From the IMG/VR virus record IMGVR_UViG_3300032073_000149, positions 1 to 30,258 of that record: a stretch of 30,258 nt of DNA. One strand, given 5' to 3'. Made by a program: the position numbers and the translations under genes. Source of the stretch: a virus. Shown piece by piece: positions 2,528 to 30,108 of the stretch (position 1 is the stretch's first letter; every line of letters starts with the position of its first letter). Below the pieces are notes generated by a model. The model was given only the letters and a program-made list of their open reading frames with translations. It made no database searches and was not told the DNA's origin.

Positions 2528-3808
2528 TTATTTTGATGATATTACAACCTCGCTTGAAGTTGCAAATAATTCTTGTTTACTATTTTCTGTTGTTTTTAAT
2601 GTAACATTTAAGTACATCCCTTTTAGACCAGAAACATCTGCTCCAAATAATATTTCATTTTCTTGTCCTGCTATTGAAGCATTTTGTAATACTGAAAAAT
2701 ATTTATTTTCTTTCTTTTCAAACATTGAAGGTAATATATTTACGAATACATCACCATCTCCATCATAACCAAAATCAAATTGATATTTAGCTACGTCTGC
2801 GCCCATGTCTGTATAATTAGCACCGTCTAAATCTGTATAGATGCTTTCAGCAGTCCACCCTGAAGTTCCTTCATAACCTACTGTTTTGAAGTTTTTAATT
2901 ATAGATCCGTCCATGTTAACCACTGCTGTTATACTAGATGCAACAGCAGGTTGCCCATAAAACACATTATAATCAGTATTTTTATAATGAATATATACAT
3001 TTCCTTTATGGAAAGTGTACATGTTATTATTTAATGTAAATCCAGCTTCTGGATAATAACTATAAAAACTTGTCCAACCTTTTGAAGTTTCGTCGAAAGC
3101 AATATTTTTATTAGTTTCTTTTAAATGAAGAATGTATTGATCTTTTACGTTATCATACATTCCAATCATTTTTGTATTTAGTTTAAGATTATCTTTGAAA
3201 TAATCTCTCATGCCATAATTAGATACCTCAGTTAAACCATCTCTTGTTAGTCTTAAAACAACACCTCGTTTTTTATCTGTAAAGTATTTCCTATTTCCTT
3301 TAACAGCAAAACTTTCTGGATTTAAACTTATACCATATATACCTAAATATGTTCTTACTTGCCCAATAACTATATTAGAAGCTGTTGATAATGGTTGTCC
3401 TTCAGCTGTAAATATAAAATCTTTATTTATACCAGCAGCATTACATTTATCTTCTTGTAATATAAATAACTCTCTATCCTCAGCATGTAACTTCTGTATT
3501 GAGCCATCTGTTATATCTACTGCTTTTGTAATATTAGCGCCAATAGGAAATTGGTTTGTTTCGTTTACTCCAGTTTTTGAATTATAAATACCAGAATAAA
3601 TCATTGCGTTTTTTCTATCTATAACAGTATAGTCATCATTAGAAGCGTAAGCCCTAACACCTAAGTCCATTGCAGTTTCATTAAAACCACCCTTTATTCT
3701 TGCTTCTTCTATATAATATCTTTCATTAGAGACATCACCAGTATTTGCAAAAGTAACACTTTTGACAAAGATAGAGTTAAAATAACCGATTTCTAAAGTT
3801 TTAGACAT
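2528..3808 (-). CDS. Nozzle/stabilisation-associated virion protein
   Basis: A 426-residue protein with strand-rich, propeller-like character and no membrane segment. Middle motifs include LHAEDRELFILQEDKC (about residues 105-121), FAVKGNRKYFTDKKRGVVLRL (about 165-186) and LTEVSNYGMRDYF (about 190-203). Lines of the type 'RGVVLRLTRDGLTEVSNYGMRDYF' are typical of the C-terminal part of tail stabilisation or 'muzzle/nozzle' proteins in crAss-like and related Bacteroidetes podoviruses. The N-terminus (GYFNSIFVKSVTFANTGD.SNERYYIEEARIKGGFNET) looks like an entry strand region. It directly follows the 1329-residue nozzle-like gene, so the two may be halves of one larger assembly that is a single chain in relatives. 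The role is inferred from motif resemblance and position; I cannot check it by alignment here. Confidence 0.65.
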   Translation of the reverse strand: MSKTLEIGYFNSIFVKSVTFANTGDVSNERYYIEEARIKGGFNETAMDLGVRAYASNDDYTVIDRKNAMIYSGIYNSKTGVNETNQFPIGANITKAVDITDGSIQKLHAEDRELFILQEDKCNAAGINKDFIFTAEGQPLSTASNIVIGQVRTYLGIYGISLNPESFAVKGNRKYFTDKKRGVVLRLTRDGLTEVSNYGMRDYFKDNLKLNTKMIGMYDNVKDQYILHLKETNKNIAFDETSKGWTSFYSYYPEAGFTLNNNMYTFHKGNVYIHYKNTDYNVFYGQPAVASSITAVVNMDGSIIKNFKTVGYEGTSGWTAESIYTDLDGANYTDMGADVAKYQFDFGYDGDGDVFVNILPSMFEKKENKYFSVLQNASIAGQENEILFGADVSGLKGMYLNVTLKTTENSKQELFATSSEVVISSK

Positions 3809-17898: not shown

Positions 17899-18170
17899 TA
17901 TTTAGATCTTCTTTCGGCAAAGCCTTTAAATGTATCTACCTTTTTATCTAAAGGTTTATTTTCAAGTAAAGCTTTTTCAGATTCAATCCGATTTAATATT
18001 TCAAAAGCATCGAATATAGCTAGCTTTTTTGTAGCAGCCGCATTCTTTAATCTATCCGCTGAGATATCGTCTTCTGAATCAACTATAGGTTCTTTTGCAA
18101 CCTTAATTAATTCATCAACAGCTTTCTGTCCAGCTTGGATTATATTCTTTTTCGTTTCCTTGACGTTCAT
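17898..18170 (-). CDS. Small helical protein, putative terminase small subunit
   Basis: A 90-residue, highly charged, mostly helical protein (VKETKKNIIQAGQKAVDELIKVAKE... RLKNAAATKKLAIFDAFEILNRIESEKALLE). It is immediately upstream of TerL with a one-base TAATG stop/start overlap, and its own start lies 56 bases inside the end of the preceding gene. Position and size (small terminase subunits are often 80-180 residues) suggest TerS. I do not see a clear helix-turn-helix, so this rests on context. The first half (about residues 1-30) and the second (about 40-75) could be two helices of an oligomeric core. It may instead be a small packaging accessory. A weaker + strand ORF covers the same bases and is rejected. 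Confidence 0.6.
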   Translation of the reverse strand: MNVKETKKNIIQAGQKAVDELIKVAKEPIVDSEDDISADRLKNAAATKKLAIFDAFEILNRIESEKALLENKPLDKKVDTFKGFAERRSK

Positions 18171-18714
18171 ACTTAATAGATACTGAATTAGTTAATACTC
18201 TATATAATCTTTCACCATCAACAATGAATTCATATTCACTGCTAGGTGTAAAACCAACTAAATCTCCTACATGTATATTATCAAGTTTACTATCAACATG
18301 TTTTATAATTCCTTGATACGGAATTTCTTTTTCTTTAGAAAATATATTATTAGATACAATTGGTTTAATAAAACAATAGCCTTCTGGTATATACCATTTA
18401 TTATTTCTTTTAAATAAAAATATTTGGTCAGGCATTACAAAGTATTCATTTTCTTTGTAAAAACTCCTAGTATTTTTTTCTTCACCGTGTTGATCATACC
18501 ACCTTCTAAAAACATTATGATGAACTATAACTTCATCACCGATTTTAATTTTTGTATCGTTTTGCTTAGGGGTAGATGTCACTATACCAACGCGACTAAC
18601 ATATCGATGATCAGAGATCTCTGTAGTTAACAGTAACTCTGATCCATCAATATATTTTTTATTATCGTAGCGTGTATTTTTAGGTTTAACTATAAAGTTA
18701 AATAAACTTCGCAT
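18115..18714 (-). CDS. Probable tandem Cpn10 (GroES-fold) protein, unrecognised by name
   Basis: 199 residues that read as two consecutive GroES-like units. Unit 1 (about residues 4-101) has an entry strand LFNFIVKP, a loop DGSELLLTTEISDHRYVS resembling a GroES mobile loop, then VGIV, KIKIGDEVIV (57-64), YFVMPDQIFLF (91-101). Unit 2 (about 112-182) repeats the order with YCFIKPI, YQGII, IHVGDLVGF (147-155), ERLYRVLTNSVSIKY (168-182). The GroES core pattern 'x-G-x-V ... v-k-x-G-D-x-V ... y-x-I/V-x-x-x-D/S-I' appears twice. Unit 2 has no clear mobile loop (SNNIFSKEKEIPY is much more polar). It could be a phage co-chaperonin that caps the phage or host GroEL, or a structural use of the same fold. 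The pattern match is visible; the function is inferred. Its first base is the last base of the preceding stop (TAATG), and its end overlaps the TerS-like gene. Confidence 0.65.
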   Translation of the reverse strand: MRSLFNFIVKPKNTRYDNKKYIDGSELLLTTEISDHRYVSRVGIVTSTPKQNDTKIKIGDEVIVHHNVFRRWYDQHGEEKNTRSFYKENEYFVMPDQIFLFKRNNKWYIPEGYCFIKPIVSNNIFSKEKEIPYQGIIKHVDSKLDNIHVGDLVGFTPSSEYEFIVDGERLYRVLTNSVSIKYERQGNEKEYNPSWTESC

Positions 18715-19237: not shown

Positions 19238-20137
19238 TTATTTTTTAGGGGAAGAACTTACGAACCACCCTTTGTATTTTTCTCTTTTAGCGCATATATA
19301 ATCTATATACTTATCAACTTTTTCTTTCCAGTTTTTATCTATTTCAGGATTTATAATACCTGATTTAAAATTAGAAAATGTTTTATTAACATATTCTTTG
19401 GCATTATCCTGATTATATAGTAAATGATTATTTATACAATAAAATGATCCTCTTTGTATATTGTTCCAAACGTCTATAGGTGATGTTTCTTTATTCATAA
19501 CAACACTATATATAGCGCTTTCGCTTATATGAGTTGTGTATACACCTTTAGCTTTTTGTAAGTAATAATACATATTTATATTTCTTGGCAATATATTTTC
19601 TTCACCAAAAAAATCTTTTAATTCACCTATAATCTGATGTGTTGTTATAGGGTGAGGTTTAAAATATACATTATTACCGTGTTTGCTTCTTATATGTTTT
19701 AATCTATTTAAACAAACATTTTCTCTAACCTTATTAGAACCTGGTAAAACTACTAAATAGTCTTTAGGTTCATATTTCGAGAAGGCTTTTTCGTCTCGAC
19801 CGCTATATTTATTAGCTCCGTTATCTACGATTCTATTTATAAACCATGAAGAATAATCAACAATCTCTTCGTTGCTTGGTTTTGCAGCGTCGATCATTTG
19901 TTCATTCCTTATTTTATAGTTTAATGGTTGTAAATAAAAACAACCTGCATACTCTGTGTATGCTAAGGTTTTGAAGTATGGCATTTCTTCTGCCATAACA
20001 TCGTAGCTAGATTCCAAACCATTTTCACTAGCTTTTCGAATTACATAACCTTCTACTTGTTCTAGGTCATATAATTTCTTGTCTTTCTTTAAAGGGCCGA
20101 TTCTACTATCCAGCTCTTTTTTGTTAAACATTTCCAT
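19238..20137 (-). CDS. Glycosyltransferase-like protein (capsule-polysaccharide type)
   Basis: 299 residues, no membrane segment. The C-terminal half has the outline of the second Rossmann-like domain of capsule polysaccharide synthesis and export enzymes (the KpsC/KpsS-type family): DYLVVLPGSNKVRENVCLNRLKHI (about residues 126-149), VYFKPHPIT (157-165), LPRNINMYYYLQKAKGVYTTHISESAIYSVV (about 183-213). The 'HP' after a strand and the later 'S-x-x-x' helix start after a strand are the parts I rely on. The N-terminal half is not recognised. It directly follows the Thr-rich fibre genes, so modification of the fibre or of host surface glycans is an attractive guess. The activity itself is inferred and unproven; a degenerate or non-enzymatic relative is possible. 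Confidence 0.45.
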   Translation of the reverse strand: MEMFNKKELDSRIGPLKKDKKLYDLEQVEGYVIRKASENGLESSYDVMAEEMPYFKTLAYTEYAGCFYLQPLNYKIRNEQMIDAAKPSNEEIVDYSSWFINRIVDNGANKYSGRDEKAFSKYEPKDYLVVLPGSNKVRENVCLNRLKHIRSKHGNNVYFKPHPITTHQIIGELKDFFGEENILPRNINMYYYLQKAKGVYTTHISESAIYSVVMNKETSPIDVWNNIQRGSFYCINNHLLYNQDNAKEYVNKTFSNFKSGIINPEIDKNWKEKVDKYIDYICAKREKYKGWFVSSSPKK

Positions 20138-20189: not shown

Positions 20190-22739
20190 CTAATACTCTT
20201 CACTAGAAACGCTTGATCTCGGGTGATTCACTCTATCCCCAGGCTGATTATACTCTTCTGCATCTGCATACCACGAAGTTTGCTTAGTAAACGACGTATT
20301 AAAACTAGTTGTGTATGTTGTTATCGTATTATACACAGTTAATGTACTCAAGTCAGTCTGATAAGTTGTTGTAGTAGTGGTACTAGTATTAAATGTTGTA
20401 GTCGTGTTCCTATTTGTACTCCATACAGTAATTGTAGCTGTACTCGTATTATATGCTGTAGTAGTATTTTTAGATGTTTCCCAAGTTGTAGTAGTATTAG
20501 TACTAGTATTATATGCTGTTGATGTTGATTTACTAGTAGCAAATGTTGTTACTGTTGATGTACTCGTATTAAACGCAGTTGTAGTACTCTTATTAGTAGC
20601 AAATGTTGTTGTAGTAGATGCAGTCGTATTATAAGCAGTAGATGTAGATCTCGTTGTACTAAATGTTGTTACAGTTGAAGTACTTGTATTGAATGTTGTT
20701 GTCGTCGTCGTGCTTGTGTTAAATGTAGTAAGCGTGCTCGTACTAGTGTTATAAGCAGTAGATATAGAAGTTTCATATGTTGTAACCGTAGACTTACTAG
20801 TATTATAAGTTGTGGTTGTGTTTCTATTTGTACTAAATGTCGTTGTGGTGCTTTTAGTAGTATTATAAGCAGTAGTAGTCGTTGTCGACGTATTGAACGT
20901 TGTTACAGTTGCAGTTGACGTATTAAACGTTGTAATCGTAGCTGTAGTTGTATTATACGTTGTGGTAGTATTTGTACTTGTATTGTATTCAGTAGTAGTA
21001 CTAGTACTCGTATTGAAAGTTGTTGTTGTATTTGTACTCGTATTAAATACAGTTGTTGTATTTGTACTTGTATTATAAACAGTACTTGTTGACCTTGTTG
21101 TTTCAAAAGTTGTTGAATATACTGTATTTGTAGTCTTCGTAGTATTAAACGTAGTAGTAGTACTTTTACTAGTTGTATAAGCAGTTAAAGTAGATTTAGT
21201 TGTAGCAGTACTCGTGTTAAATACTGTTATTGTATTTGTCGAAGTATTAAACGTCGTTGTCGTAGTAGTGCTTGTATTGTATGTGGTTGTTGTACTTCTT
21301 GATGTTTCAAAAGTTGTCGTTGTACTTTTTGATGTGGAAAAAGTAGTTGCAGTACTTGTATTATACGTAGTTGTTGTACTAGTATTAAAAGTTGTCGTAG
21401 TCGCTGTAGTTGTGTTAAAAGTTGTAGTCGTTGACTTAGACGTTATAGTGCTAGTATTAAAAGTTGTAGTATATACAGTTGTTGTACTCTTACCTGTTTC
21501 TTGTAATTGTGTACTTCTTGTTGTGTTATATGCTGTTGTTGTACTCTTTGATGTCTCAAAGGTAGTTGTATAAGCAGTTGTAGTATTTGTACTGGTGTTA
21601 TACGTTGTCGTTGTACTTTTACTTGTACTAAATACCGTTGCTGTACTTTTCGATGTAGAAAATGTTGTTGTAAATGTTGTTGTAGTGCTTCTACTTGTTG
21701 AAAATGTAGTATTTGTATTTCTTGATGTAGATACAGTTGTAGTCCTATTTGTTAATGTAGTTGTACTTGTATTATACGCTGTTGTTGTTGAATACGTTGT
21801 TGTAGTGTTTCTTGTTTCAAGAGTATTTCTAGCAGTTGCCCAAGTTGTATTAGTACTCCTTGTTGTTGAAAACGTAGTAGTATATACAGTTGTTGTTGCT
21901 GTCGAAGTATTAAATACAGTATTAGTTGTATAAACTGTTGTTGTATTTCTTGTCTCAAGTGTGTTTTTATTAGTACTCCAAGTTGTTGTTGTATTTTTAC
22001 TAGTTACTGTAGATGTGTTAAATGTGGTTGTCGTTGCTGTACTAGTGTTATATACAGTATTTGTAGTATATGTAGTTGTAGTAGATCTTGATTCAGCTGT
22101 AGTTTTACTTGTTGCAAAAGTTGTAGTATAAACAGTAGTTGTACTTGTGTTATATGTAGTTGTAGTAGACCTAGATGTATTAAAGTAACTTGTATATGTT
22201 GTTGCTGTACTGGTATTAAATGCAGTACTTGTACTTCTTGAAGTAGCAGTATTTCTGCTCTCACCCGTAGTATGAGACGTGTTAAAACTAGTTGTTGTAT
22301 TTCTTGATGTAGAAGTTCCTCTACTTTCACCTGTACTTCTCGATGTATTATATGAAGTCGTCGTATTATATGAGGTTGTGGTATTAAAAGATGTGGTTGT
22401 ATTCCTAGAAGTACCTGTACCTCGACTTTCACCAGTACTATGAGATGTATTAAACGAAGTAGATGTACTTTTGGATGTTCCGTATGTTGTGGTTGTACTT
22501 TTACTTGTATTATAAGTAGTCGTAGTATTATATGCCGTAGTAGTATTCCTACTTTCCCCGGTACCTCTTGAAGTTCCGTATGTTGTTGTTGTATTATAAG
22601 CAGTTGTTGTATTCCTACTTTCACCTGTTCCATGGGATGTACCATAGGTCGTCGTAGTATTAAAACTCGTCGTAGTATTGTAAGCTGTTATAGTATTATA
22701 ACTGGTTGTTGTTGCTGTACTTCTACTAGTATTTGGCAT
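20190..22739 (-). CDS. Giant Thr/Ser/Asn-rich repeat fibre protein (no S74 domain)
   Basis: 849 residues, almost wholly built of short units such as NTTTAY, NTTTTY, GTSRGTGESR and NTSTTTTTF. The unit lengths are mostly 6, 8, 10, 14 or 16 residues and each ends in Tyr, Phe or Trp. The first 165 or so residues carry the GESR-type units, the next part carries TAESR/TLETR and YTTTF units, and the rest is mainly plain decads (NTST-STTTTF). No signal peptide or membrane segment. The C-terminus is different (TKQTSWYADAEEYNQPGDRVNHPRSSVSSEEY, last 31 or so residues) and could be the virion- or partner-binding end. It lacks the S74 domain of its sister at 23312-26293. I infer a long thin fibre or filament, beta-structured. 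The start (MPNTSRSTA) is 1 base after the methyltransferase-like stop. Confidence 0.7.
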   Translation of the reverse strand: MPNTSRSTATTTSYNTITAYNTTTSFNTTTTYGTSHGTGESRNTTTAYNTTTTYGTSRGTGESRNTTTAYNTTTTYNTSKSTTTTYGTSKSTSTSFNTSHSTGESRGTGTSRNTTTSFNTTTSYNTTTSYNTSRSTGESRGTSTSRNTTTSFNTSHTTGESRNTATSRSTSTAFNTSTATTYTSYFNTSRSTTTTYNTSTTTVYTTTFATSKTTAESRSTTTTYTTNTVYNTSTATTTTFNTSTVTSKNTTTTWSTNKNTLETRNTTTVYTTNTVFNTSTATTTVYTTTFSTTRSTNTTWATARNTLETRNTTTTYSTTTAYNTSTTTLTNRTTTVSTSRNTNTTFSTSRSTTTTFTTTFSTSKSTATVFSTSKSTTTTYNTSTNTTTAYTTTFETSKSTTTAYNTTRSTQLQETGKSTTTVYTTTFNTSTITSKSTTTTFNTTTATTTTFNTSTTTTYNTSTATTFSTSKSTTTTFETSRSTTTTYNTSTTTTTTFNTSTNTITVFNTSTATTKSTLTAYTTSKSTTTTFNTTKTTNTVYSTTFETTRSTSTVYNTSTNTTTVFNTSTNTTTTFNTSTSTTTEYNTSTNTTTTYNTTTATITTFNTSTATVTTFNTSTTTTTAYNTTKSTTTTFSTNRNTTTTYNTSKSTVTTYETSISTAYNTSTSTLTTFNTSTTTTTTFNTSTSTVTTFSTTRSTSTAYNTTASTTTTFATNKSTTTAFNTSTSTVTTFATSKSTSTAYNTSTNTTTTWETSKNTTTAYNTSTATITVWSTNRNTTTTFNTSTTTTTTYQTDLSTLTVYNTITTYTTSFNTSFTKQTSWYADAEEYNQPGDRVNHPRSSVSSEEY
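20280..22736 (-). repeat. 6/8/10/14/16-residue repeat tract, fibre 2
   Basis: The basic unit is [NSGAE]-T-[ST]-[TKRN]-[SNTG]-T-x-T-[TAV]-[FYW], 30 bases long, mixed with 18-base units (NTTTAY type) and a few 12-, 24-, 42- and 48-base ones. The coding strand is A/C-rich and very low in G. Repeated peptides use different Thr and Ser codons from copy to copy, so few long exact DNA repeats exist. Confidence 0.9.
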
Positions 22740-22740
22740 C

Positions 22741-23310
22741 TTAACTTATTGTTTCACCTGATGTTGGTATTATTATTCTACCGCCAGACTTTAAATTATT
22801 TGTATAATTGTTTAATAATGTTGTTTTATGGTCTTGTGTTACATCTCTTGACATAGCCCATAAATCACATATTATAATGTCATATTTTTTTGATGTTGTA
22901 TATGCCCATTCATCGCCTTGTATAACAGTTATATTATTATCTATCCAAGTAACATAATCTATTATTTCTTGGTCTTCTTCTATTACATCTAAAGATGTTA
23001 CAGACTTATTTCTATAAATATATTCAGGAGCATTCCCTAAATATAAACCTAAATATAATACATCTCCCCATGTTACACCTTCATATTGCTCGGCTGTTAC
23101 ATCCCATCCACAACATTCCCCACCATCACCAACAAAGTTCTTTGCAGGAATTTCATGGTTGTATCTTTGGTGCATAACATCTTCTTTATATTTAAATCTA
23201 GACATAATATATGGATCAAGTGTTTCCGGCTCCTTCTTGTTCATTTTCTCTACTACAAAATTTGTTCCATTATGTGCGGCGATTAAATTTTCGTCAAAAT
23301 AAGCTCCCAT
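22741..23310 (-). CDS. Class I SAM-methyltransferase-like / spermidine-synthase-like protein
   Basis: 189 residues. The order fits a Rossmann methyltransferase. WGDVLYLGLYLGNAPEYIYRN (residues 81-101) is the nucleotide loop, with LGLYLG in the place of the usual G-x-G-x-G. TSLDVIEEDQEII (105-117) has the acidic residues after strand 2, ITVIQGDEWAY (127-137) is strand 3, YDIIICDLWAM (143-153) is strand 4, and LKSGGRIIIPTSG (173-185) is the last strand. I see no motif for a specific substrate. 'LDV.EEDQEI' plus 'CDLW' is reminiscent of spermidine synthases. The first 75 residues contain a Cys pair and an acidic patch (FVGDGGECCGWD). The gene sits between the two giant repeat fibres, so methylation or another modification of the fibre is possible. 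Family: fairly sure; substrate: unknown. Confidence 0.6.
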   Translation of the reverse strand: MGAYFDENLIAAHNGTNFVVEKMNKKEPETLDPYIMSRFKYKEDVMHQRYNHEIPAKNFVGDGGECCGWDVTAEQYEGVTWGDVLYLGLYLGNAPEYIYRNKSVTSLDVIEEDQEIIDYVTWIDNNITVIQGDEWAYTTSKKYDIIICDLWAMSRDVTQDHKTTLLNNYTNNLKSGGRIIIPTSGETIS

Positions 23311-23311
23311 A

Positions 23312-26293
23312 TTATATTTGTTTAAATTCTACATCAATTCCTTTAGCAAGATAATCTACAGCTTGATAACCTCTGACTTTCATTACTGCTCCTTCAATAT
23401 GTTCAACTTCATCAGCCATAACACCTTGCCATACTCCTTTACCATATTTCTCATCTTTATATTCGAATAGATATATATTTATTCCATTTAATGATTTACC
23501 ATATTGTCTAATATTCTTTTTAAGTCTTCTATCTGAGAAACCACCACTACATTGACTCACACCTACACAAGTTCCACCTGCACCAATTTCGTATTTATGA
23601 GTAGGCATAAATGCAGACGCGTTTTTAGCACCATACCAACCAGAATTTAATGGTGAACCTGTATTATTTGATGAATAAACATTTGATCCATATGCAGGTA
23701 AACCACTGGATACATTATTGCCATAATAAGTATAATCGAAACTTTCAAAACATACAAAACCAGAGCTACTATTTGCAGTGGAATCAAATGCTACTAATGA
23801 TGCCGCTGTGTTATATGTAGTAGTTGTGTTTGTACTGTGACTAGTTCCTGTACCTCTACTTTCTCCTGTGCCTCTACTAGTTCCTGTAGCTTTACTTGTG
23901 TTATAAGATGTAGTAGTATTGTACGCTGTAGATGTAGATCTACTTTCTCCTGTGCCGTGAGATGTATTAAACGAGGTCGTAGTATTGTATGCCGTAGATG
24001 TGCTTCTGCTTTCGCCAGTACCTCTTGCTGTATTAAATGTAGTCGTTGTGCTTTTAGAAGTATTAAACGAAGTTGTTGTGTTTCTACTAGTACCATAAGT
24101 AGTTGTTGTGTTATACGCAGTTGTCGTATTAAACGCTGTACTTGTACTTCTTGATGTTCCAGTTGATCTACTCTCACCCGTACTGTGACTAGTTCCAAAA
24201 GTGGTAGTAGTATTATACGAGGTTGTTGTGTTAAATACTGTAGAAGTTGCTTTACTTGTACCATAAGTGGTTGTAGTATTGTAAGCCGTTACAGTATTAA
24301 ATGTAGTTGTCGTATTTCTGCTGGTACCGTAAGTAGTTGTTCTTGTTGTGACAACACTCGTTTGGAATGTGGTAGTTGTAGAACGTGAAGTCGAGAATGT
24401 TGTTGTCTTGCTAGTTACAGTCGATGTATTATACGTCGTTGTAGTCGAATATGCAGTTGTCGTACTTCTACTTTCAGTTGTATTTTTATTAGTACTATAT
24501 GTTGTTGTAGTACTCCTAGATGTTGAGAAAGTTGTTGTATAAGCTGTACTAGTAGCAGTGCTTGTATTAAATACAGTATTTGTTGTATATTCAGTAGACG
24601 TGCTTCTTTCTTCTGTAGTATTCTTATTTGTACTAAACGTTGTAGTTGTACTCTTACTTGTAATTGTACTAGTGTTAAACGTTGTAGTAGTTGCTGTTGT
24701 GGTATTGAAGGTAGTTGATGTAGTATACTCTGTAGACGTACTTCTGCTTTCTAAAGTTGTTGTGCTCGTGTTATAAGCTGTTGTAGTAGAAAATACAGTT
24801 GTAGTACTAGTGTTAAACGTTGTGGATGTAGCAGTCGTAGTATTAAACGTGGTCGTTGTGGATTGACTAGTATTTGTAGATGTATTGTATGTTGTTGTTG
24901 TGTTGGTAGTGGTATTATAAGTCGTTGTAGTAGACTTACTAGTACTAAATTGAGTAGCTGTACTTTTTGAAGTTACAGTTGATGTATTATATGTTGTTGT
25001 TGTCGACGTACTAGTATTGAACGTAGTTGTAGTACTTGTATTATAAGTAGTAGTGGTACTTTTATTAGTACTTCTGCTTGTTGAAAATGTTGTAGTATAT
25101 ACTGTAGATGTACTTCTATTTGTTGAGAACGTTGTATTGGTTGACAATGTTGTTGCAAATGTAGTTGTTCTTGTTGTTTCAAAAGATGTATTAGTACTAG
25201 TATTATATGTAGTAGTCGTAGCGGTTGATGTATTAAACGCTGTTGTAGTTGACTTACTGGTATTATAAGCAGTAGTTGTTGATCTACTTGTGCTGAAAGT
25301 AGTCGATGTACTTATATTAGTCGGAACTGTTGTACCAAAACTTGTTATTGTTGTTGTTGTAGTATTATATACCGTTGTTGTACTAGTTGAGGTATTATAT
25401 GTTGTTGTTGTATTTTTATTGGTTATAGTCGACGTATTAAAAGTCGTAGTTGTACTAGTTGTTGTATTATAAGCAGTACTTGTCGCTCTACTAGTAGAAT
25501 ATACAGTACTTGTCGCTCTTGTAGTATTATATACAGTAGTTGTTTGTTTTGTAGTATTGTAAGTAGTAGTTGTAGATCTTGTAGTGTTATATTCTGTAGT
25601 TGTAGATCTTGTGGTACTAAAAGTCGTAGTGGTTGACCTTGTAGTAGAGAATGTAGTTACAGTAGATGTACTTGTGTTATAAGTTGTAACTGTTGTAGTA
25701 CTTGTATTAAATATAGTATTTGTAGCTGTACTAGTATTATATGTGGTAGTTGTTGAAGTAGTGGTATTAAATACAGTACTTGTAGAAGTATTATATACCG
25801 TTGAGGTATTTCTAGAGGTACTAAATGTAGTAGTTGTTCCTCTTGATGTAGCAAATGTTGTTACAGTACTAGTGCTAGTATTAAATGTAGTTGTGGTAGC
25901 TGTGCTAGTATTAAATGTAGTAACAGTAATTGTTGACGTGTTAAATATAGTATTCGTGCTTTTTGATGTAGCAAATGTCGTTACAGTATTAGTACTTGTG
26001 TTGTATGCAGTAGTTGTATTAGTACTAGTGTTATATGTAGTGGTGGTATTTGTTGATGTATTAAACGCTGTACTTGTTGTTTTAGATGTTGCAAAAGTAG
26101 TAGTTGTAGATGTGCTAGTGTTAAATACAGTACTAGTAGTTTTACTTGTATTAAAGGTTGTAACGGTACTTGTACTAGTATTAAAAGCAGTTGTAGTATG
26201 CTTTTGAGTACTTGTTGACTTTGTCGTGTTCTTGCTAGTAGATTTAGTTGTAGCAGTATTCCAAAAATCTATTCTGTTCCAAAGCCATCTCAT
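23312..26293 (-). CDS. Giant Thr/Ser/Asn-rich repeat tail fibre with S74 self-cleaving chaperone
   Basis: 993 residues. The N-terminus is a short hydrophobic tip (MRWLWNRIDFWNTATT). Residues 12-827 are repeats: plain decads first (NTSTSTVTTF, ATSKTTSTAF), then ESR/YTT-type units, then GESR-type units near the end. Residues 828-919 are a globular stretch with three Cys (CFESFDYTYYGNN, GGTCVGVSQCSGGF). The end is a peptidase S74 / intramolecular chaperone domain, SDRRLKKNIR... (from residue 920), with the conserved Ser (920) and Lys (925) of the self-cleavage site. S74 domains trimerise phage fibres and spikes, then cut themselves off, so the mature fibre should end at 919. It follows the fibre base protein by 11 bases. 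The repeat tract is inferred to be the shaft. Confidence 0.8.
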   Translation of the reverse strand: MRWLWNRIDFWNTATTKSTSKNTTKSTSTQKHTTTAFNTSTSTVTTFNTSKTTSTVFNTSTSTTTTFATSKTTSTAFNTSTNTTTTYNTSTNTTTAYNTSTNTVTTFATSKSTNTIFNTSTITVTTFNTSTATTTTFNTSTSTVTTFATSRGTTTTFSTSRNTSTVYNTSTSTVFNTTTSTTTTYNTSTATNTIFNTSTTTVTTYNTSTSTVTTFSTTRSTTTTFSTTRSTTTEYNTTRSTTTTYNTTKQTTTVYNTTRATSTVYSTSRATSTAYNTTTSTTTTFNTSTITNKNTTTTYNTSTSTTTVYNTTTTTITSFGTTVPTNISTSTTFSTSRSTTTAYNTSKSTTTAFNTSTATTTTYNTSTNTSFETTRTTTFATTLSTNTTFSTNRSTSTVYTTTFSTSRSTNKSTTTTYNTSTTTTFNTSTSTTTTYNTSTVTSKSTATQFSTSKSTTTTYNTTTNTTTTYNTSTNTSQSTTTTFNTTTATSTTFNTSTTTVFSTTTAYNTSTTTLESRSTSTEYTTSTTFNTTTATTTTFNTSTITSKSTTTTFSTNKNTTEERSTSTEYTTNTVFNTSTATSTAYTTTFSTSRSTTTTYSTNKNTTESRSTTTAYSTTTTYNTSTVTSKTTTFSTSRSTTTTFQTSVVTTRTTTYGTSRNTTTTFNTVTAYNTTTTYGTSKATSTVFNTTTSYNTTTTFGTSHSTGESRSTGTSRSTSTAFNTTTAYNTTTTYGTSRNTTTSFNTSKSTTTTFNTARGTGESRSTSTAYNTTTSFNTSHGTGESRSTSTAYNTTTSYNTSKATGTSRGTGESRGTGTSHSTNTTTTYNTAASLVAFDSTANSSSGFVCFESFDYTYYGNNVSSGLPAYGSNVYSSNNTGSPLNSGWYGAKNASAFMPTHKYEIGAGGTCVGVSQCSGGFSDRRLKKNIRQYGKSLNGINIYLFEYKDEKYGKGVWQGVMADEVEHIEGAVMKVRGYQAVDYLAKGIDVEFKQI
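23315..23536 (-). other. S74 intramolecular chaperone domain and predicted autocleavage point
   Basis: The last 74 residues of the 993-residue fibre. SDRRLKKNI begins at residue 920 and GVWQGVMADEVEHI follows, both hallmarks of the S74 family. Cleavage is expected just before Ser920, near base 23536, releasing the 74-residue chaperone after trimer formation. Confidence 0.85.
23813..26260 (-). repeat. 6/8/10/14/16-residue repeat tract, fibre 1
   Basis: Mostly 30-base decads, with 18-base units concentrated near the 3' part of the gene. The aromatic residue closes each unit. The unit classes run from plain decads at the N-terminal end to GESR-bearing units at the C-terminal end, the reverse of the order in fibre 2. 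Confidence 0.9.
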
Positions 26294-26304
26294 TTAACTA
26301 AAGT

Positions 26305-26805
26305 TTAAGAGGGTTGAGGATAAGGACCAAAGTTTCCTACATAATTAACTAATATTGCGGTTGTGCTTGCAACAAAATAATTTAAAATACCAATTTTACC
26401 TGCTGTTGCATCAAAACTAATTGATCCACCGCCAGGAGTGTAAATACTAGCAGGGAAAGATTCCCAAGCCAAAGAACCAACACTAGATGGATTCGTTATT
26501 ACAATTGTACCTGTTTTACCAACAACATTAGCGTTAATATTTTCAAATATTAATTTATTTGGTGCATCAACAGCAATTACATTATAATTATTTACAGTTG
26601 TATTTAAATCTATGCCATGAGTATGTGCACTACCTGAAACAGGTGCCGCAGATGTAATATCCGCAAATCCAGTTGCACCTAAGTTACCAAAGCTAGCTAC
26701 GTCTGACATTCTGTAATTCCTAGTAGTTCCATCAATATCTGTACCTAATAACTTGTCATCGGCCGATAAAATATGATCTCTTAAAATATCTTTTATTCTT
26801 GGCAT
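26305..26805 (-). CDS. Fibre base / tail appendage adaptor
   Basis: 166 residues. The opening (LRDHILSADDKLLGTDIDGTTRNYRMSDVASFG, about residues 8-40) is the short 'LSADDKLLGTD..G.T.NY..SD' signature I know from the N-termini of many marine phage fibre proteins, where it probably holds the fibre on the virion. The rest is strand-rich with Gly/Ser turns (TPGGGSISFDATAGKIGILNY). It is directly before the 993-residue fibre, which lacks this module, so the pair may be a split fibre: base here, shaft next. No membrane segment. The gap to the holin gene is 5 bases. Confidence 0.65.
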   Translation of the reverse strand: MPRIKDILRDHILSADDKLLGTDIDGTTRNYRMSDVASFGNLGATGFADITSAAPVSGSAHTHGIDLNTTVNNYNVIAVDAPNKLIFENINANVVGKTGTIVITNPSSVGSLAWESFPASIYTPGGGSISFDATAGKIGILNYFVASTTAILVNYVGNFGPYPQPS

Positions 26806-28288: not shown

Positions 28289-28306
28289 TTGAATGCGACT
28301 ATTCAA
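28289..28306 (-). terminator. Weak hairpin at the groES stop
   Basis: On the minus strand TTGAAT-AGTCGC-ATTCAA is a 6-bp stem with a 6-base loop that contains the GroES stop codon. A/T-rich sequence with a few Ts (AATTATTGTTT) follows. The stem is AT-rich and therefore weak, so it could be chance or a partial terminator. Confidence 0.3.
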
Positions 28307-28556
28307 CTAATACTATGTCGCCGAGCTTTAACACGTAATATAATTTATTTTTCCATTCGATACCGTGACCAGCATGTTTATCGTAGTGAACTATATCATC
28401 TTCGTTAAGTACATCCGCTAGTGGCCCAGCAGATATAACTCTTCCTTTTAAATATCTTACGTCTTTGTTTTGCTCTTCTGTAAGTTCCAAGCCACCTACT
28501 TTCTTCGGGGCTTCTTTTATCTTTTCAATAACGACGTAAAAATTAATTGCTTTCAT
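28299..28556 (-). CDS. groES: Co-chaperonin GroES (Cpn10)
   Basis: 85 residues, close to but shorter than bacterial GroES (about 97). The order is correct: entry strand INFYVVIEKI (residues 4-13), mobile loop KKVGGLELTEEQNKDVRYLKG (18-38) with GGLELT in the place of the usual GGIVLT, then RVISAGPLA, DDIVHYDKHAGHGIEWKNKLYYVLKLGDIVLVE. LELT should dock into the apical domain of GroEL. It overlaps the end of groEL by 14 bases and lies after it, the reverse of the bacterial groES-groEL order. The roof loop is short. As a partner of the phage GroEL it would close the folding cage, probably for capsid or fibre subunits. A second, tandem Cpn10-like gene is at 18115-18714. Confidence 0.9.
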   Translation of the reverse strand: MKAINFYVVIEKIKEAPKKVGGLELTEEQNKDVRYLKGRVISAGPLADVLNEDDIVHYDKHAGHGIEWKNKLYYVLKLGDIVLVE

Positions 28557-30108
28557 TTATTACTCTAATGTTATTGATTACACAATCTGCTGAAAATATT
28601 GTTGTAGCAACACTAACTGCATTTTTTAATGCTGTTTTAGTTACAAGCACAGGGTCAATAATACCTTTTTTGATCATATCAACTTTAGTATTATTTACAA
28701 CATCTATACCTATACCAGCTTTACTATATTCTTTATATTCTAATGCTGCATTATCTAGTATAATTGCATATGGTGCTTTTATAGCTTCTAACAAGATTAC
28801 TTCACCATCATTCTCTGGTACTATTGCAAACGATGCATCTAATAGTGCGACACCTCCACCAGCAACAATTCCTTCTTGTAATGCTGCTTTAGTTGCATAT
28901 ATAGCGTCTTCAACTCTGTCCTTCTTCTCTTTCATTTCAACTTTAGAGCCAGCACCAACTTTAATTATTGCTACTTGTCCATTTAACATTGCTAATCTTT
29001 CTTGTAACTTTTTCTTGAAAAATGGATTCTTTTCTTTTTGTACTTTAGATTCTACAGATTTTATTCTTTTCTTTAAAGTATCTCCTGCACTTGTTATTTG
29101 TAAAACAGTACTACTATCATCTGTAACGGATTGAATAACTTCACCTAAAACACTTGGTTCTATTAAATCTAAATCATCTCCTAATTCTTCATTCATAATA
29201 GTTGCTCCGGTAAGTATCGCAAGGTCTTCAATTGTATCTTGTTTTGTTGGCCCAAATCCAGGTAGATCCACAACATTTACTTTTATGTTACCTTTAACTT
29301 TATTTGCTAGCAACGCAGCCAAAGGTTGTTGTTCTACACCTGCGACGATCAACAGGCTCCTTTTCTCTTTAATAACAAACTCCAATACGCTTTGTATTTT
29401 ACGAATATTAGGTATTGGCGATGATACTATTAGTACGTACGGTTTATCTAGTACAGCCTTACCTTTATCCTTATCTGTTATAAAATGTGGCGATTTGAGT
29501 CCGCAATTTATTCTAGTGCCCTCAACGAATTTCACGTGTGTGTCATGGGTCTCAGACTCTTCCATAAGGACGACACCATCCTTTCCTACTACTGAATAAG
29601 CTTGCGAAATTATTTTACCGAGTTCTCTATCGTTGTTACAACTAATAGAACTTACGTTTTCAAGCATATTATCCTTTACTTCCACTGCACTTTCATCAAG
29701 GTATTTATTAACCTTGTCAAGACCAGATAAAATTCCATTTTTTATAGGTCTTACACTTTGTGCATATTTTTTTTCATTAGCTAATTGCAATAATGAATGT
29801 GCAAGCACGGTAGCCGTTGTGGTACCATCACCTGCTTCTCTAACTGTATTTCTAGCTGCCTCTTTTATTAAAGTTGCACCTATATTTTCAACCGGATCAT
29901 ATAAGACTACGGATTCTGCGACCGTTACACCATCTTTTGTAATCACCGGTTTACCTAGCGCATCTTCGTAGATTACGCATTTACCTGAAGCACCTAAGGT
30001 AGATTTAACTGCATTAGTCAGTTTATTTACCCCGTGCATTATTTTTTCTCTAGCATCTATCCCGAAAGACAGATCCTTTACTATCTCACTTGGTTGATTG
30101 TATTCCAT
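28543..30108 (-). CDS. groEL: Chaperonin GroEL (Hsp60), phage-encoded
   Basis: 521 residues. The equatorial domain shows TKDGVTVAES (57-66), AGDGTTTATVLA (92-103, nucleotide and Mg site), RVEDAIYATKAALQEGIVAGGGVALL (398-423) with Asp401 in the place of the catalytic Asp398 of E. coli GroEL, and a final KGIIDPVLVTKTALKNAVSVATTIF. The apical domain has the expected FVEGTRINCGLKSPHFIT (194-211), PIPNIRKIQSVLEFVI and VDLPGFG. The chain has no Gly-Gly-Met tail. All main parts are present, so it looks functional. It is shorter than E. coli GroEL (548), mainly at the ends. It is the first complete gene upstream of the structural cluster. The leader before ATG is AT-rich without a Shine-Dalgarno. Confidence 0.95.
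   Translation of the reverse strand: MEYNQPSEIVKDLSFGIDAREKIMHGVNKLTNAVKSTLGASGKCVIYEDALGKPVITKDGVTVAESVVLYDPVENIGATLIKEAARNTVREAGDGTTTATVLAHSLLQLANEKKYAQSVRPIKNGILSGLDKVNKYLDESAVEVKDNMLENVSSISCNNDRELGKIISQAYSVVGKDGVVLMEESETHDTHVKFVEGTRINCGLKSPHFITDKDKGKAVLDKPYVLIVSSPIPNIRKIQSVLEFVIKEKRSLLIVAGVEQQPLAALLANKVKGNIKVNVVDLPGFGPTKQDTIEDLAILTGATIMNEELGDDLDLIEPSVLGEVIQSVTDDSSTVLQITSAGDTLKKRIKSVESKVQKEKNPFFKKKLQERLAMLNGQVAIIKVGAGSKVEMKEKKDRVEDAIYATKAALQEGIVAGGGVALLDASFAIVPENDGEVILLEAIKAPYAIILDNAALEYKEYSKAGIGIDVVNNTKVDMIKKGIIDPVLVTKTALKNAVSVATTIFSADCVINNIRVINESN

Follow-up and report, generated by a model that had tools for sequence, protein, structure and literature searches.

Cross-strand cation-pi contacts, in which a Lys or Arg lies opposite an aromatic residue, are familiar from designed beta-hairpins, where they occur as single pairs in short peptides. 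In a tandem beta-zipper, a long flexible chain lines up as antiparallel strands on the folded F1 modules of another protein, so that the order of its motifs is reversed. Fibronectin-binding proteins are the example (PMC7480013). Among fibres, those of the S74/ICA type (endosialidase, the T5 L-shaped fibre, the MyRF stalk) combine an S74 domain, which cleaves itself by means of a Ser-Lys dyad, with a long alternating beta shaft (PMC8326128). Several proteins contribute to one fibre in the T4-type long tail fibre (gp34-gp37) and in S16 gp37-gp38, where gp37 bears gp38 as a separate adhesin (PMC6851490). In the Crassvirales, gp22 of phiCrAss001 is a trimer, and phi13:2 has been called an outgroup (PMC10172136).

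The locus described here shares single traits with each of these systems. One of its two giant fibre proteins ends in an S74 domain behind a long alternating shaft, more than one protein is proposed to build the fibre, and a muzzle of the crAss type together with a related virion module are traits that the window has in common with the Crassvirales (PMC10172136).

The fibre genes and their surroundings

The window, by which we mean the whole stretch of DNA that was analysed, is the 30,258-base virus record IMGVR_UViG_3300032073_000149. Its minus strand carries a virion module of TerL, portal, structural proteins and the crAss-type muzzle (2528-3808; PF25731, E=3.6e-11; PF25729, E=4e-8), and the window also encodes a holin, GroES and GroEL. 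Two Thr-rich genes, referred to as fibre A and fibre B, flank a methyltransferase-like gene; both being read N to C, B comes first and A last. The features are as follows:

20190..22739, minus strand: fibre A gene, an open reading frame of 849 aa
20286-22739, minus strand: Thr-rich two-residue-periodic chain of fibre A, N-terminus to ~residue 818
after ~residue 818 of fibre A, minus strand: short C-terminal tail, WYADAEEYNQPGDRVNHPRS...
21513..21515, minus strand: unpaired (bulge) residue 409 of fibre A, from the A:B register step
22741..23310, minus strand: 189-aa methyltransferase-like ORF between both fibre genes (weak Pfam Spermine_synth)
23312..26293, minus strand: fibre B gene (993 aa), encoding the Thr-rich chain up to ~832, the tip domain and the S74 chaperone
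23798..26293, minus strand: repeat region of fibre B, residues 1-832, antiparallel complement of fibre A by sequence
23537..23797, minus strand: globular domain of fibre B, residues 833-919, between repeats and chaperone; probable distal tip (AF2 pLDDT, orthologue conservation)
23312..23536, minus strand: Peptidase_S74 intramolecular chaperone/autocleavage domain, fibre B residues 920-993 (PF13884 match)
26305..26805, minus strand: 166-aa protein immediately upstream of fibre B (phmmer)

The S74 domain of fibre B matches PF13884 with 29.5 bits (cut-off 22; E=9e-7). Residues S920, D921 and K925 are invariant in 14 orthologues, and S920 and K925 presumably form the autocleavage dyad. Fibre A matches no Pfam family and hence has no S74 domain. 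Its C-terminal tails are conserved across related loci (QPGD..HPRS, GQLGxxPF..GR, STER.D). In AF2 models, all of them of monomers, residues 833-919 of B reach pLDDT values of mostly 70-90 versus ~25 in the repeats, and this globular domain is conserved among the S74-type orthologues. For the C-terminus of B, the tip and S74 were modelled confidently and the repeats unconfidently, with no significant fold match.

The Spermine_synth match of the methyltransferase-like ORF (Pfam, E=0.025) lies under the cut-off, and homologues of this ORF were found in 43 loci among the matches listed. Residues 1-39 of the 166-aa protein resemble a protein of Elemovirus, a related flavobacterial phage (phmmer, E=1.4e-4), and the protein is a possible anchor or adaptor. 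Directly downstream of fibre A, a 299-aa protein (19238-20137; phrog_26179) recurs in 99 related loci among the matches listed and has distant relatives in Caulobacter phages. PHROGs assign GroEL and two GroES-like proteins to 28299-28556, 28543-30108 and 18115-18714, with Pfam Cpn10 confirming 28299-28556; these proteins are possibly linked to the folding of the giant fibres.

A metagenome search, proposed in an earlier note on this DNA, was carried out with one degenerate DNA pattern for two of the repeat units described below, a probe that relatives outside the clade may escape. At least 119 stretches in IMG/VR match the pattern, and a single contig does so among bacterial genomes, in a Flavobacteriales MAG. 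Among the matches listed, 115 of 119 have further genes in common with the window, above all those for the 299-aa protein, the GroES-like protein and TerL, indicating that they form one clade of related phages. The TerL is closest to that of an unclassified Manatee Spring phage (61%), followed by Elemovirus (45%), phages of the Cellulophaga phi13:2/phi46:3 type (39%) and Tenacibaculum phages (31%). The named relatives are phages of Flavobacterium, Cellulophaga, Tenacibaculum and Maribacter, which makes a marine flavobacterium the probable host. The crassvirus muzzle domains sit together with a TerL closest to flavobacterial podoviruses outside the classical Crassvirales.

Even spacing and two-faced repeats

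The earlier note had claimed that aromatic residues of the 849-residue protein, and of its sister fibre, are almost always an even number of residues apart, and had suggested comparing all gaps with shuffled sequences. A full count of Tyr/Phe/Trp bears this out. Even gaps account for 78 of 81 in fibre A (residues 1-815; 3 odd) and for 78 of 78 in fibre B (residues 11-835; 0 odd), versus ~47% in composition-preserving shuffles, where ~52-53% of gaps are odd and the minimum in 2000 shuffles is 31% odd. The three odd gaps of A are exactly the exceptions named at the time, the YTSYF cluster (gaps of 3 and 1) and a 19-residue gap at 404-423. Gap sizes are 4, 6, 8, 10 (~55%), 12, 14, 16, 22, 24, 26 and 30. 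Gaps outside the dominant ten-residue unit are likewise even, and indels are almost only even, so that unit length varies while parity is kept, again as described earlier. Among the matches listed, 160 T-rich ORF stretches from 118 related marine-virus loci contain 8815 even and 729 odd gaps, 257 of the odd ones being of size 1 and 169 of size 3.

The periodicity is wider than the aromatics, as Lys and Arg obey the same face rule. In 143 unique repeat regions among the matches listed, the first face, which holds ~95-98% of F, Y, K and R, is composed of 63% T, 18% F/Y/W and 12% K/R; the second face consists of T/S/N/A/V. The alternating, beta-type periodicity with aromatics on one face, postulated from a partial reading, is supported. 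The dominant unit is the decad N-T-S-[TKR]-x-T-x-T-x-[FY], with Thr occupying positions 2, 6 and 8 in 99% of the 3149 units among the matches listed. The decad complements itself, the K/R/T of position 4 lying opposite the aromatic of position 10 and, on the small face, Asn1 opposite Ser3 (N-S 1586 observed, 1013 expected), which hints at a second, weaker code. Gly and Pro are nearly absent from the repeats, with 15 Gly in the 849 residues of A and 17 in the 832 of the B repeat.

Third-base agreement between units at the shared Thr codons is 0.36 versus 0.37 by chance. Third bases are thus saturated, which indicates that the units are not fresh DNA duplicates and that selection acts at the protein level. 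DNA slippage or recent duplication as the source of parity was rejected on the same grounds.

The suspicion that no described family follows this rule is consistent with our searches, in which the repeats gave no match to Pfam, PHROGs or PDB sequences. Searches of annotated phages by tblastn and blastn gave no match either, a weak negative because low-complexity filtering was on and affects these repeats. AF2 modelling of 11 decads of A alone yielded a low-confidence strand array with pLDDT 63 in one model and ~31 in the others; compared with the PDB, this model has no significant match, the best being ice-binding solenoids and CsgA (E of at least 0.27).

Matched lengths and antiparallel register

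Over 22 pairs, the length of A follows the repeat length of B with r=0.999, across a range of 439-1379 aa between phages. Comparison of the window with related locus L086 gives indels of +10, -12, -56 and +40 in A and of +40, -56, -12, +10 and +20 in B, the last of which matches a +20 near the A N-terminus. An equal-size B indel near the mirrored site accompanies 5/5 A indels in this comparison and 5/5 in L016 versus L044. The 98%-identical loci L022 and L072 differ by 68-residue indels at A304 (partner B124) and at B126, and the DNA around and between these two 68-codon indels is 96-99% identical. In 5 of 7 comparisons the net change in A equals that in B, and in the other 2 it is at most 9 residues off. 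With strict matching of size and site, 19 of 47 A indels are matched and some phage comparisons are only partly so; net lengths agree or nearly agree even there. Mirrored order together with near-equal length led to the idea that B[k-i] is the partner of A[i]. The even-step indels of the earlier note thus hold, but its picture of separate, self-contained shafts finds no support, as the indels of A and B are mirrored in the manner of antiparallel partners.

These observations raise the question of how two genes change length in concert. Given the order B, methyltransferase-like gene, A, mirrored sites enclose one contiguous block of DNA, and one idea is that recombination between nested blocks could keep the partner genes length-matched. 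Class changes among close pairs are too few for a decisive site-by-site comparison of compensatory substitutions.

Register was scanned ungapped at every constant offset, matching aromatics against K/R/H of the partner chain. The first scan gave an aromatic(A)/cation(B) signal at a single antiparallel offset, with z up to 9.0. All 11 of 11 cognate pairs display a single sharp antiparallel register with 51-73 aromatic-cation matches (z 8.9-13.1), whereas the parallel orientation reaches best z values of 3.0-5.2. Non-cognate pairs give 19-44 matches, and 49-51 only for the 98%-identical L022/L072. Shuffling the order of units in the window's A gives 26.4+-3.2 matches (maximum 37 in 1000 shuffles), compared with the 59 observed. 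Nearly every locus with two T-rich ORFs shows the signal, and pooling yielded 35 pairs, 30 of them distinct by 8-mer clustering, among the matches listed. At ungapped constant register these 35 pairs contain 2239 aromatic-cation oppositions (285 expected), with cation-cation reduced to 14 (98 expected) and aromatic-aromatic to 35 (204 expected). Beyond +-10 side peaks and bulge shifts, no second A:B register, as a closed barrel might show, was detected. Pairing A with B in parallel, or either chain with itself in antiparallel orientation, gave lower scores and was rejected.

For a residue-level map we used dynamic programming (DP) that allows a few register changes and maximises aromatic-cation matches. 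Residue i of A lies opposite residue 833-i of B, with 824 residues paired and one one-residue bulge: A1 faces B832, and i+j is 833 until A408 and 834 over A410-A818, the frayed ends A819-849 and B1-12 being unreliable. The window pairing contains 100 aromatic-cation, 0 aromatic-aromatic and 0 cation-cation oppositions; cations (K/R/H) face an aromatic of the partner chain in 49/49 cases for A and in 51/52 for B. Since this map is chosen by maximising aromatic-cation matches, the ungapped figure is the fairer one. DP controls with shuffled A or a non-cognate B introduce many gaps and score between about half and two thirds as high. The method can overfit: unit-shuffled controls still have 0.73-0.79 of cations satisfied, although they take 11-14 gaps and score about half as high. 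On the bulky face of the 35 pairs, F-R (933, 140 expected), K-Y (615, 91), R-Y (560, 124) and F-K (457, 103) are enriched, while R-T (8, 966 expected), K-T (18, 707), K-R (0, 83) and F-Y (0, 154) are nearly or entirely absent. The faces match as well, with 10456 bulky-bulky, 10149 small-small and 103 mixed oppositions. At the level of sequence, A and B are antiparallel complements of one another. The aromatic parity first described from this DNA is hence part of a larger pattern; the complementarity of A and B had been missed, and Lys and Arg, which are equally important, had gone unmentioned.

The exceptions to parity find their place in this register. The 19-residue gap at A404-423 coincides with the step of i+j from 833 to 834, A having one extra residue inside the conserved motif TTRSTQLQETxKST; L086, L128 and L057 have this motif at the same step of the register. 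The net parity shift in A is thus a bulge in the pairing at residue 409 and no failure of the rule. The YTSYF cluster leaves the register unchanged: Y182 faces Arg651, Y185 faces Val648 and F186 faces Val647.

Some loci depart from the common layout. In the A protein of L040 the register jumps by 164 at ~96-259 (k 599 to 763), a stretch with no partner in B, as if ~160 residues had been inserted in A with the flanking pairing undisturbed. Long T-poor N-terminal parts occur also in L060, L108, L050 and L096. A second type of fibre B has no S74 (L010, L019/L058, L021, L026/L071, L048/L077, L091, L098, L102) and instead a short terminal Cys motif, for example GGCARGCI or GGCFRNCI. Its pairing code is identical wherever the A protein is available, with 129 matches in L026/L071 and 150 in L077/L048.

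A proposed two-chain fibre and its counterparts

The complementarity between the chains points to a heteromer rather than a one-chain homotrimer, and we consider it very likely that A and B together make up a single hetero-oligomeric phage fibre, each contributing one half. The Thr-rich chains would run antiparallel and side by side in a continuous extended-beta register of ~820 residues. A would begin beside the tip domain and the end of the B repeats, and its C-terminus would lie where B starts. Each Lys/Arg would stand opposite a Phe/Tyr (rarely Trp) of the partner in a cation-pi pair on one face of the ribbon, the rest of this bulky face being mostly Thr opposite Thr; the opposite face would carry small Ser/Asn/Thr/Ala/Val. 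Contact between A and B would then be edge to edge. By analogy with studied phages, the S74 domain is likely to trimerise B and to release itself by cleavage, which would make a shaft of three A:B ribbons plausible. The whole would serve as a tail fibre, with the C-terminal tip of B probably distal. At the virion end, the conserved C-terminal tail of A would meet the N-terminus of B (MRWLWNRIDFW), next to the 166-aa protein. Fully extended, ~820 residues would span ~270 nm at ~0.33 nm per residue.

Parity would then be a consequence of one continuous antiparallel beta register. An odd change of spacing would bring large residues onto the wrong face and out of register, so that almost only even changes survive, and these would do so when the partner gene changes equally at the mirrored place. 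A lone extra residue would be accommodated as a beta-bulge.

Several other readings account for part of these data. Because the i+j constant holds for antiparallel face packing too, and the bulky faces coincide, A and B might lie face to face between two packed sheets; the exact opposition of aromatic and cation fits edge-to-edge strands better, and single-residue bulges and the Asn-Ser excess on the small face favour the same geometry, so that face packing appears unlikely. The code speaks to pairing and not to its permanence, and A has no recognised virion-attachment domain in Pfam or PHROGs. A could accordingly be an antiparallel-pairing assembly partner (a chaperone, a template or a temporary cover) rather than a lasting part of the fibre. 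This is quite improbable in our judgement, as A matches the whole shaft of B in length and has conserved C-terminal tails, as expected for a structural component.

Strict two-residue periodicity and an S74 domain at the end of B, the driver of homotrimeric triple-beta-helices in studied phages (PMC8326128), would also suit a homotrimeric fibre formed by each protein on its own, a triple-stranded beta-helix or similar in which parity reflects in/out alternation only. Such fibres do not predict antiparallel complementarity, equal lengths or mirrored indels; with almost no Gly/Pro in the repeats, several B proteins of the clade devoid of S74 and a cognate-specific A:B register speaking strongly against it, this arrangement is highly improbable. 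There is next to no chance that the complementarity is an artefact of repeats, alignment method or inverted-repeat DNA. Repetitive sequences do yield the side peaks at +-10 residues and gapped DP inflates matches, but the signal stands in the scan at constant register without gaps, and neither shuffled unit order, nor non-cognate partners, nor the parallel orientation reproduces it. A reverse-complement origin in the DNA was rejected, complementarity by codon position being 0.44/0.15/0.46 for paired versus 0.39/0.20/0.38 for random codons.

Returning to the hetero-oligomeric fibre, the two genes likely encode a protein duplex with chains of up to ~1,400 residues, a residue-level code, mirrored indels and a very long fibre. 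Aromatic would stand opposite cation and Thr opposite Thr, with the order of units writing cognate specificity much as in nucleic-acid strands. If physical, this would be a protein counterpart of strand complementarity, in which the sequence of one chain largely predicts the charged and aromatic positions of its partner over hundreds to more than 1,000 residues. Phage appendages would gain a new architecture, and coevolution between proteins an unusually clean example from nature in which mirrored indels provide a built-in test; simple rules for long, ordered beta pairing could be drawn from it as well.

The two-gene pairing code found no counterpart in PDB, Pfam or PHROGs, and neither a family nor a two-chain fibre of this kind is described in the open-access literature searched. 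Thr-rich paired fibres are not described among the Crassvirales tail fibres in PMC10172136, and Cellulophaga phi14:2 has no Thr-rich fibre ORF of this kind. The closest likenesses all differ from this arrangement. The proteins of T4 and S16 fibres join end to end, whereas A and B are proposed to lie side by side over their full length. Unlike the tandem beta-zipper, A and B are two periodic chains with a residue-wise aromatic/cation code and no folded modules, and in contrast to the isolated contacts of designed hairpins, they line up about a hundred such pairs in order over the length of two genes. The stalks of S74/ICA fibres, finally, are one-chain homotrimers (PMC8326128) with a Gly-marked octad repeat, in place of which the decad dominates in A and B; here, a second gene encodes what reads as the antiparallel complement of the whole shaft.
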